From: Chroococcidiopsidaceae cyanobacterium CP_BM_ER_R8_30
Lineage (GTDB): Bacteria > Cyanobacteriota > Cyanobacteriia > Cyanobacteriales > Chroococcidiopsidaceae
NCBI GenBank assembly: GCA_019244235.1
Contig: JAFASY010000004.1
Coordinates: forward strand, 1 to 43,935
Length of the DNA: 43,935 bases
Direction: 5' to 3'
A program made the position numbers and the translations under genes. Positions 9 through 17,131 of the stretch are shown in pieces. How positions within the stretch are numbered: the stretch's first letter is position 1; each line of letters opens with the position of its first letter. The notes beneath the pieces were generated by a model. That model ran no database searches and was not told where the DNA came from. It saw nothing but the letters and a program-made list of their open reading frames with translations.

Positions 9-932
9 ATGCAGGATTGGTGGCAAGCAACATTTCCGCAAGGGCGACAAACCCTAACTATTCCTGATGTTAGTGGGCAACCTGTATCAATTGCCTATGG
101 AGAAAAAGGTCAAGGCAAACCGCTGATTTTAGTGCATGGTATTGGCAGTTGGTCCTATAGTTGGCGTCACTGTATCAACCCACTATCGCAGCATTTTCGA
201 GTGATTTGTTTCGATGCCAAAGGTCACGGCTTTTCAACTAAACCAGAGTATGCTGAACACCCTGGTCATCAAGTTGTTGAGCTGGAGCGAATTATCCGGA
301 CGGTTTGTGATGAACCTGCTATTGTCATTGCTGAATCACTAGGGGCACTGACAAGTTTAGCCGTTGTCCAAGTTCACCCAGAGTTGTTTGCTCGGTTGGT
401 GCTCATCAATGTGCCTATTTTCCCCATCCGGTTGCCGAATCGGGGAATGCGATCGCTGTCTTATGTACCACTAGAACTGATTCAATTGATCGATCGTCTG
501 CGTTTAGCCTACCTGTTTTCTCCCCTAGTGCGAGCAATCGTGCGGGTAGAACGGCGTGAGGTGTTGGTGGATTGGTCAGGGGTGACGCCAGAAGAGGTTT
601 ACTGGATTACTTATCCATATATTTACTTGCCTGGTTCCGTTGCCAAGTTAACTGAAGAACTTCAACTAGCAGCACGAGAAATTGAACTTCTAGAGCAAAA
701 TCAACTCAATCTCATTAGTAACATCCAAAACAAACTGGCAACTATTACCTGCCCGACACTGATTCTATGGGGCGATCAAGACCGCTGGTTCCCTGCTACA
801 GATGGAGAGAAGTTGCGCGATCTTATTCCCAACTCCAGATTACAAATTCTCCACAACTGCGGTCACGATGCTTCCGCTGGTTGTCCAGAAGCAGTTAATG
901 CGGCAATTCTTGAGTTTTTACAAGATTCTTAA
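9..932 (+). CDS. alpha/beta hydrolase family protein
   Basis: A 307-residue alpha/beta-hydrolase fold protein. The oxyanion-hole segment HGIG is near residue 43, and the nucleophile elbow A-E-S-L-G places the serine at 110. The acid is probably D258 in GDQDRWFP, and the base is H286 in NCGHD. The substrate cannot be predicted; such soluble hydrolases act on esters, epoxides or C-C bonds. The ATG at 9 is so near the window edge that an upstream start cannot be excluded. The last 49 codons, from R259 onward and including H286, are duplicated almost identically at 1659-1805 beyond a Uma2 gene. The C-terminus here (DS-stop) therefore probably differs from the ancestral one, which in the second copy runs on as DSDCTGV. 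Confidence 0.85.
   Translation: MQDWWQATFPQGRQTLTIPDVSGQPVSIAYGEKGQGKPLILVHGIGSWSYSWRHCINPLSQHFRVICFDAKGHGFSTKPEYAEHPGHQVVELERIIRTVCDEPAIVIAESLGALTSLAVVQVHPELFARLVLINVPIFPIRLPNRGMRSLSYVPLELIQLIDRLRLAYLFSPLVRAIVRVERREVLVDWSGVTPEEVYWITYPYIYLPGSVAKLTEELQLAAREIELLEQNQLNLISNIQNKLATITCPTLILWGDQDRWFPATDGEKLRDLIPNSRLQILHNCGHDASAGCPEAVNAAILEFLQDS
783..929. repeat. 147-bp direct repeat, copy 1 (hydrolase 3' end)
   Basis: This segment recurs in the same orientation at 1659-1805 with four mismatches in 147 bp, counted by eye. Three differences are synonymous in the hydrolase frame and one changes R277 to K. Homology stops abruptly on both sides. The two copies bracket the Uma2 gene. Confidence 0.95.
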
Positions 933-943
933 GTGACCGCTGA

Positions 944-1534
944 TCATCGTCCCGCCCTCAGAAGCTGCTCGGCAGTCAATTGCAAGTTAGGGAATGTCCG
1001 AGACACGATTACATCACTGCCACGAAAATTCTTGGATTGATAAGCACCATTTTCTAGCTTCAACACCGTCACCACTGTCCGCTCTGGGTCAATTCGCCAG
1101 AACTCCGGAATCCCTCGCGCTGCATACTCGCGTGGCTTCTCCACATAATCGCGATCGTAATTCTCGCTGCCTGGATTGCCCGGAGACACAATCTCAATCA
1201 CCACTAGCGGTACGGGTGCATCTGCCGCAACCAACGCTTGCGGCAAGCCATCGATCGCTGCGAAGGACTCTTCCGAATGAACGATCAGATCTGGATCTCG
1301 CGCCGTCACCGAGGAACTGCTGACCGCAATCCACTGCCTGAATCCGATGCGATAAGCCGGAATCCCTAATTGAAGAAACGCAGCAAACAAAAAGCCAGCG
1401 ATGATCGTATTGGTTGTACTTTCAGCCCCCATATCGACTAACACCCCATTCATCAGTTCGTAACGGGTATTAGTACCATCGTCATACGCGAGAAATTCCT
1501 CAATGCTTGTGAATCGAGATTTAGTTTGCGTCAT
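944..1534 (-). CDS. Uma2 family putative endonuclease (DUF820)
   Basis: A Uma2-family protein with a restriction-endonuclease-like PD-(D/E)XK fold, a family greatly expanded in cyanobacteria and of unproven function. Seen here: an N-terminal YELMNGVLVDM, then DPDLIV, an acidic strand VVIEIVSP, and the late signature KPREYAARGIPEFWRID. The start is the ATG at 1534 (MTQTKSRF), which begins the conserved part. The open frame reaches 1732, but that extension is antisense to the duplicated hydrolase tail. The gene converges on the hydrolase, with only 11 bp between the two stop codons. It sits exactly between two copies of a 147-bp repeat, which suggests it arrived as a cassette. DNA cleavage activity is only an inference from the fold. 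Confidence 0.85.
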   Translation of the reverse strand: MTQTKSRFTSIEEFLAYDDGTNTRYELMNGVLVDMGAESTTNTIIAGFLFAAFLQLGIPAYRIGFRQWIAVSSSSVTARDPDLIVHSEESFAAIDGLPQALVAADAPVPLVVIEIVSPGNPGSENYDRDYVEKPREYAARGIPEFWRIDPERTVVTVLKLENGAYQSKNFRGSDVIVSRTFPNLQLTAEQLLRAGR

Positions 1535-1658
1535 GCTGCCTGCTCCTACTGAACAATCGTAGATTCGGTTGGCGTGCGATCGACCGCTCGCAGATTTGCC
1601 GTTGCAGACCTGCTGTTCTATTATCGCCCCTTTGTCCCAACGGTAGTGATATGGAAAT

Positions 1659-1823
1659 CGCTGGTTCCCTGCTACAGATGGAGAGAAGTTGCGCGATCTT
1701 ATTCCCAACTCTAAATTACAAATTCTCCACAACTGCGGTCACGATGCTTCTGCTGGTTGCCCAGAAGCAGTTAATGCGGCAATTCTTGAGTTTTTACAAG
1801 ATTCTGATTGTACTGGAGTTTAG
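1659..1823 (+). pseudogene. orphan duplicate of the hydrolase C-terminal tail
   Basis: Positions 1659-1805 repeat the hydrolase 3' end (783-929) in frame, from R259 through the catalytic His region. The frame then continues as DCTGV to a TAG at 1821-1823. There is no upstream hydrolase sequence and no start codon, so this is a tail-only fragment. Because three of four differences are silent and the other is R to K, the copies probably diverged while both were under selection in intact genes. That favours import or recombination with a second allele over decay of a dead duplicate. Confidence 0.85.
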
Positions 1824-16543: not shown

Positions 16544-17131
16544 ATGACTCAGCTACTTGAAAAGACCACTGACCTGCGCATGATCTATCACGATCGCACT
16601 TGGGAGCAATTCAAGCTGATTCAAAAAGGTTTTGAAGGCTTGCCGGGTGTCCGATTGTCATATTACGAAGGAATGATCGAACTACTTATGCCCGGACAAG
16701 ACCACGAGCTATTTGGGTGCGTCATTAGGGCACTTCTGTTCAACTTCTTTGCTCAGAAAGGAATTTTCTTTCTTCCAAGCGGATCAATGACACAAGAGAG
16801 AGAGGGGAAAGCTTCGGTTCAGGCTGATAAATCTTTCTGTATTGGGAGCAGAAAGCCGATTCCTGATTTGTCGATTGAGGTCATCTTTACGAGCGGCAGT
16901 GAGAGCAAATTAGCTGTGTACCAGGCGCTAGGGGTTCTTGAAGTTTGGTTCTGGCAAGATGGCGTATTGAGATTGCATCACCTGCGCGAGTCAGGCTATG
17001 AAAGAATTGAGCGGAGCGAACTCCCAGGATTAGAAGACCTTGATATCGAACTGCTCAAACGCTGCATTCTGATTGCTGAGACAGATCCAGGTGAAGCAGC
17101 TAGAGTTTTTCAACGAGAAATTTTGCAATAA
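16544..17131 (+). CDS. Uma2 family putative endonuclease
   Basis: A 195-residue second Uma2 protein, clearly different from the one at 944. It shows YYEGMIELLMPG near residue 40, the D/E-rich strand PDLSIEVIFTSG, a conserved lysine in SESKLAVYQALGV, and VWFWQDG, which match the PD-(D/E)XK layout of the family. The C-terminal helix LLKRCILIAETDPGEAARVF is also usual. The start is the ATG at 16544. The gene stands alone between the kinase and the VOC gene, with no repeat of a neighbouring gene around it, unlike the first Uma2. Biological function of the family is unsettled. Confidence 0.82.
   Translation: MTQLLEKTTDLRMIYHDRTWEQFKLIQKGFEGLPGVRLSYYEGMIELLMPGQDHELFGCVIRALLFNFFAQKGIFFLPSGSMTQEREGKASVQADKSFCIGSRKPIPDLSIEVIFTSGSESKLAVYQALGVLEVWFWQDGVLRLHHLRESGYERIERSELPGLEDLDIELLKRCILIAETDPGEAARVFQREILQ

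Follow-up and report, generated by a model that had tools for sequence, protein, structure and literature searches.

The window, by which we mean the whole stretch of DNA analysed here, is an entire contig (C117, 43,935 bp) of a 5.54-Mb draft genome in 328 contigs. The contig starts 8 bases ahead of the ATG (position 9) of an alpha/beta hydrolase gene, which lies on the forward strand (3–932) and was recognized by its match to Pfam Abhydrolase_1 (E 3e-29) and by its orthologues. This copy of the gene, here called B, is complete. Its 3' end forms the first copy (R1, 783–929, forward strand) of a direct repeat of 147 nt, of which the second copy (R2, 1659–1805, forward strand) follows at a spacing of 876. 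The two copies are 97% identical with four mismatches, and between them lies a Uma2 gene, as an earlier note on this DNA had described. R2 is an orphan hydrolase tail without stop or frameshift. When the flanks of the Uma2 gene were aligned against each other an E value of 3e-69 was obtained, so that the likeness of R1 and R2 is not due to chance. The repeat encodes the hydrolase C-terminus with a GHD motif. With the ATG at position 9 as codon 1, the His of this motif is His286, and we take it to be the catalytic His of the alpha/beta hydrolase fold. In agreement with the codon reading of the earlier note, one of the four mismatches exchanges R for K (AGA/AAA, Arg/Lys), and the other three are silent (TCC/TCT in two Ser codons, TGT/TGC in a Cys codon). 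The two copies end differently. The stop codon of the R1 copy (TAA) is supplied from the Uma2 side, and this copy is without the last five codons of the longer R2-side ending, DSDCTGV. The rest of that ending (DCTGV and stop, 1806–1823, forward strand) is continuous with R2 and was taken as the native end.

Between the repeat copies lies an inserted segment of 729 bp (930–1658, reverse strand), delimited by the repeat edges and on the left also by a Uma2 paralogue on another contig of the same genome (C82). It carries the Uma2 gene (PF05685; 944–1534, reverse strand, 196 aa), with a profile score of 86.4 bits against a curated cut-off of 27 and a match to the PADLOC family PDC-S03 (E 1.1e-64), where PDC presumably stands for phage defence candidate. 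A longer mechanical reading frame reaches 1732 and runs antisense into R2. The coding region is most likely 944–1534, because the C82 paralogue has equal length and the same start (MTQ). At the DNA level the paralogue is 71% identical over window positions 929–1535, a similarity that stops at the R1 edge on the left but at the Uma2 start codon on the other side, where the boundary of the insert is therefore defined by the repeat only. Between the two paralogues dN was 0.26 and dS 1.12, and we concluded that the Uma2 gene has been kept by selection. At E 1e-55 just two other places in 60 genomes, the same genome included, were matched, namely the C82 paralogue (66% protein identity) and one in genome G048 (50%), and for this reason the gene looks like an added part. 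The best plasmid match to the Uma2 protein was 60%. No donor joining a hydrolase tail to a Uma2 gene was found in a search that left plasmid and phage neighbourhoods outside. According to a published survey, Uma2 is probably a solo toxin belonging to the PD-(D/E)XK superfamily and is highly abundant in cyanobacteria (PMC2701414). The genome of the window holds 60 Uma2 profile matches, and a second, weaker match was seen in the window itself at 16622–17026 (E 5e-9). A Schlafen/AlbA_2 domain gene at 2440–3402 matches PADLOC family PDC-S50 (E 3.5e-15). It is adjoined by two small genes (1847–2367) that appear toxin-antitoxin-like by eye and had no Pfam or NCBIfam match.

The insert comprises 124 bp before and 14 bp after the Uma2 coding sequence. 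Its GC content is 51.3%, compared with 46.5% for the window, and 47 of 865 overlapping stretches of the same size were equally high. Besides the Uma2 gene, the only open reading frame of at least 60 aa was one of 109 aa on the opposite strand (994–1323), without a Pfam match; no transposase or integrase was present among these frames. An inverted-repeat search of 930–1658 gave no terminal inverted repeats pairing the ends of the insert. By-eye comparison showed no microhomology at either junction, the bases at both joints being different. Nor was a target deletion seen; the hydrolase end was duplicated instead, so that the cargo stands between two complete copies of the shared 147-bp segment with nothing lost. 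At each of the junctions 929/930 and 1658/1659 there is unique sequence on one side, and a mix-up of R1 and R2 during assembly should therefore not produce the bracketing of the Uma2 gene.

Full-length orthologues of the hydrolase were 73–75% identical in the six nearest genomes, and among named genomes that of Gloeocapsopsis crepidinum LEGE 06123 was the most similar (73%). The gene order ThrS-YihY-hydrolase was found in all six relatives with the most similar hydrolase. In each of the six nearest relatives further codons follow where R1 stops, for example DTGFTNT (in FLQDTGFTNT). Some more distant relatives (L012, L013, L015 and L021) end near the R1 end point. Because the six nearest all extend past it, R2 probably holds the native end of the hydrolase. 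R1 matched relatives at the DNA level in 20 loci, each time at one place; these loci include one or more pairs that represent a single place. The expectation in the earlier note, that relatives without the Uma2 gene would have an intact, repeat-free hydrolase with the long ending, was thus borne out in part: the relatives have a hydrolase without the repeat, but the DCTGV ending itself is unconserved, conservation does not extend to the downstream side, and the relatives compared are at best 75% identical, with no genome of the same genus among those drawn.

Three approaches based on the relatives gave no answer. Polarising the four R1/R2 mismatches was uninformative. Placing the locus by downstream synteny failed, since the usual downstream neighbour of the hydrolase sits on contig C328 of the same genome and the ycf39 neighbours differ in relatives. 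A phylogenetic mosaic, in which the tail seemed nearer to other families than to the closest relatives, did not yield a foreign donor of the tail (site test of tail against head, 7 to 1 against 12 to 12, P 0.10, not significant). The hydrolase and its usual next gene are no more than 60 bp apart in G003, G011 and G020, but 1 kb in G043 and 10–11 kb in G014, G013 and G008 (L081, L083 and L085); this variable region behind the hydrolase is perhaps an insertion hot spot.

The layout recurs in the same genome. In 844 kb of its unique sequence, with 785 genes, six loci including the window have a gene 3' end repeated beyond one or two genes; the contigs scanned are a non-random sample, C82 and C215 having been included because of earlier hits. 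On C215 an alpha/beta hydrolase tail (L095, 9585–11631; 73 bp, 89%) is repeated around an antisense FkbM methyltransferase gene. Contig C82 holds two loci, a hexapeptide transferase tail around an HNH endonuclease gene and an unnamed 119-aa gene (L241, 13769–15567, reverse strand; 107 bp, 90%) and the 3' part of a Gfo/Idh oxidoreductase gene around an antisense DUF6883/DUF4926 pair (L242, 5426–7850; 628 bp, 96%). Two others lie on C14, where an epimerase tail flanks an unnamed 104-aa gene (L257, 12250–13815, reverse strand; 166 bp, 90%) and the tail of a 689-aa gene flanks a DUF29 gene (L258, 5610–8542, reverse strand; 168 bp, 87%). An opposite-strand gene of 207 aa also has its end overlapped by one of the two copies at L258; the tail was assigned to the 689-aa gene because the frame of this gene is open in both copies. 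The orientation of the cargo opposes that of the target gene at four of the six loci.

Among the regions of relatives, mostly centred on Uma2 genes, one such locus was counted in 1.08 Mb. It lies in G011 (C46, L090 16522–18455, reverse strand), where a uppS tail (90 bp, 86%) is repeated around an antisense TacA-like antitoxin gene and a GNAT gene. Without the window the rate is 6.2 per Mb in the window's genome and 0.9 per Mb in the relatives (two-sided P 0.09, both samples being non-random). Ten other uppS loci were compared, from nine other genomes and the window's own, and in nine of them, G006 being the exception, uppS is separated from the next native stretch by 0–198 bp. The 2.16 kb found in G011 thereby establishes an insertion at this place, part of which, an ATP-grasp gene, falls outside the repeat. 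Empty sites were also sought for two of the sister loci, that with FkbM on C215 and that of the epimerase on C14, but no downstream match was obtained in relatives. The orphan tail carries a stop or frameshift at three of the seven loci (an in-frame stop at the C215 locus, a frameshift at the C14 epimerase locus, and G011), and at those three the far copy is therefore the decaying one. R2 in the window shows no such decay.

The nine rows of the own-contig scan include two each for L242 and L258, which are one locus each, and an immediate tandem without cargo (L252), which was rejected. From the 15 rows of the other scan, which held mostly regions of relatives, L099 (two rows), L137, L167, L166, L142 and four rows of L189 were not counted as cases, and the two rows of L122 coincide with L258. 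L099 represents tandem paralogues, and at L137 and L167 there is no gene between the repeat copies. L142 (1438–3615, C2 of G014) is an orphan-head candidate, where the start of a 115-aa gene is repeated upstream (65 bp, 74%) with a 131-aa gene between. L189 (C203 21000–31351 of the window's genome) is dense in short direct repeats, with genes that by eye are XisH/XisI-like and toxin-antitoxin-like; its candidates comprise a tail copy of 62 bp beyond intervening genes, an orphan head (76 bp, 87%) and paralogous pairs.

According to the earlier note the layout might explain how the Uma2 family spreads. This was examined by a flanking-repeat comparison in the window's genome, G013 and G014, in which direct repeats of at least 40 bp were sought within 1.5 kb on both sides of a gene; genes over 1500 bp and those within 500 bp of a region end were left out. 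Such repeats flanked 5 of 116 Uma2 genes and 33 of 647 other genes, and are thus not commoner around Uma2. A neighbour's end on both sides was found for one of the 116, that of the window itself, and the proposal is not supported in this sample. The remaining four matches were discarded: L057 has intergenic repeats within a region rich in repeats, L067 a further copy of the end of the Uma2 gene itself, L147 (in G014) paralogous genes on either side, and L149 a repeat mostly inside the Uma2 gene. In the genes tested the layout is not tied to Uma2. Because it recurs around other small genes in the same genome, gene capture of this kind looks general and not peculiar to the Uma2 family. More widely, the analysis points to an insertion mode that duplicates gene tails and recurs in one cyanobacterial genome.

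If the host's own 147 bp had been copied when the Uma2 gene entered the last codons of the hydrolase, by a staggered break with fill-in or by template switching, the two tails would initially have been identical. We find this long target duplication rather unlikely for the window. The anatomy is of the kind described for restriction-modification genes (PMC1643837, PMC3031569), just four differences are present in 147 bp, terminal inverted repeats are lacking, and the silent and replacement counts of the window agree with it. As a null we assumed duplication at insertion, an orphan tail without constraint and a gene copy changing silently, and calculated expectations at nine settings. For the window alone, with three of four differences silent, P was 0.14–0.28, and the differences are too few to tell. 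Pooled over the seven loci, however, 57 of 93 tail differences were silent, compared with at most 44.3 expected; P was 0.0057 at a transition weight of 9.6 with a fully constrained gene copy, and smaller at the other eight settings. This excess (P at most 0.006) is too large for duplication from the host's own tail, and the conflict is clearest at the Gfo/Idh locus on C82, where 18 of 26 differences are silent (P 0.001–0.026). Since the pooled silent excess exceeds this local-duplication null, the tails of the class appear to have accumulated at least part of their differences while in working genes. The same statement in the earlier note had been made for the window, which is too weak on its own to carry it; the pooled loci favour it for the class. 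Two histories fit the excess: the cargo arrived with an allelic tail, or there were two gene copies of which one was cut down.

The second history has to be weighed against an observation on contig C215, which ends about 120 bp into the 5' end of a second hydrolase gene (L073 1501–1621, corresponding to C215 45820–45940). This head, A, is 91% identical to that of the window hydrolase (11 of 121 bases different) and stands directly behind YihY and ThrS, a threonine-synthase-like gene (gene names assigned by eye), in the ancestral place. The ends of C215 and of the window contig share one gene without an exact overlap, and these contigs may adjoin in the genome, with two copies or alleles of the hydrolase lying where they meet. 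The repeat could then be the relic of two copies or alleles, A and B, near the Uma2 gene (which lay between or behind them), one of which was cut to its tail. For this speaks, besides the second 5' end in its ThrS-YihY context and a window contig beginning in the same gene, that silent-biased divergence equally fits two working genes, and that two paralogous genes enclose a Uma2 gene at L147 of G014. But the heads A and B are further apart (dS 0.35) than the tails R1 and R2 (dS 0.10; 11/121 against 4/147 bases, P 0.03), and R2 is therefore probably not simply the tail of the second copy. No orphan heads appeared in the own-contig scan, and none of the same gene lay within 3 kb upstream at the five other loci of this genome. 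The hydrolase was found at E up to 1e-100 in 110 of 388 genomes of the order, the window's included, with two copies in seven of the 110, always on different contigs; in this count, for which five first-look candidates from each genome were scored at that threshold, short relics would be missed. Two copies on one contig occurred in none of the 109 other matching genomes, though copies on split contigs, as in the seven, could still be neighbours. Tandem hydrolase genes in relatives, which according to the earlier note would make the tail a deletion relic, were thus absent from single contigs, while the second head on C215 keeps that case alive. All in all we consider the relic of two copies quite improbable.

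An assembly or strain-mixture artefact, in which the tail or the second head represents two variants merged in the draft, would also account for two contig ends in the same gene at 91% identity without exact overlap, in a genome of 328 contigs. It is nevertheless very hard to believe, since both junctions of Uma2 and repeat have unique sequence on one side and since the same anatomy was found at five other loci (86–96% identity) and in another genome.

With a probability of roughly 0.4 we favour a homology-anchored insertion of DNA that carried a hydrolase tail together with Uma2. A Uma2-bearing segment would have entered the hydrolase gene at its 3' end, so that the last 147 bp of the gene now flank it on either side. 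Of the two tails, the first would complete the enzyme, its stop codon being supplied by the new DNA, and the second would be the displaced original end; the direction of these events is what we infer from the layout. The arriving DNA would have brought its own homologous tail beside Uma2, and homologous recombination may have anchored it in the resident gene. Either a circularised fragment of tail plus Uma2 could have entered by a single crossover, or a one-sided crossover could have been combined with an illegitimate joint. The single crossover of a circle would give exactly this layout without microhomology or loss. That the arriving DNA carries a replacement tail, as the earlier note had proposed, agrees with the repeat-free relatives and the pooled silent excess, but a foreign donor of the tail was not found. 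The window would then exemplify an insertion mode without integrase that recurs at gene ends in this genome and brings varied small cargo.

Families of the Uma2 type are abundant in cyanobacteria without an obvious transposase, and tail-duplicating insertion offers a testable route for their capture and loss, with orphan gene tails as traces of earlier arrivals that can be searched for. A tempting generalisation is also corrected, as in the genes tested the insertion mode is untied to Uma2. A broader proposal, which we regard as doubtful, is that cassettes enter this cyanobacterium integrase-free and fused to an allelic gene 3' end, recombine in, keep the gene working and leave the old tail orphaned. 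If this were true, insertion would be reversible, and recombination between the tails would release a cassette circle with a tail for the next genome. About six loci per Mb would then make it a major route by which small genes of a selfish or defence-like kind come in.

In the open-access literature no description of such a layout was found for Uma2 genes. The closest known kind is insertion with long target duplication, which Nobusato et al. (2000) reportedly described for restriction-modification genes of Helicobacter pylori. Three reports cite this work (PMC1643837, PMC3031569, PMC3154945). Like there, a cassette with nuclease-like cargo stands here between two long direct copies of the target. 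Unlike there, the cargo is a solo Uma2 gene, and at the sister loci a methyltransferase, HNH, DUF29 or toxin-antitoxin-like gene; moreover, what is duplicated is a gene's 3' end, and the pooled tails resemble diverged alleles more than fresh copies.

Homology-facilitated illegitimate recombination usually leads to deletion and mostly involves microhomology of 3–10 bp, and circularisation followed by a single crossover is documented as a fate of linear DNA in E. coli (PMC3240628). Another report proposes one-sided recombination with an illegitimate joint for displaced T6SS effector genes of Vibrio (PMC5361080). The window resembles homology-facilitated illegitimate recombination in that one end would be anchored by homology in a conserved gene and the other joined without it, with the old downstream part displaced and kept. 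It differs by a duplication in place of a deletion and by the lack of visible microhomology.

Integrative elements with integrases specific for tRNA genes or gene ends rebuild the 3' end of their target. In contrast to these, the insert described here contains no integrase, the repeats range from 73 to 628 bp and the targets vary by locus. As in these elements, the target keeps a complete 3' end, and the old end is found at the far side.
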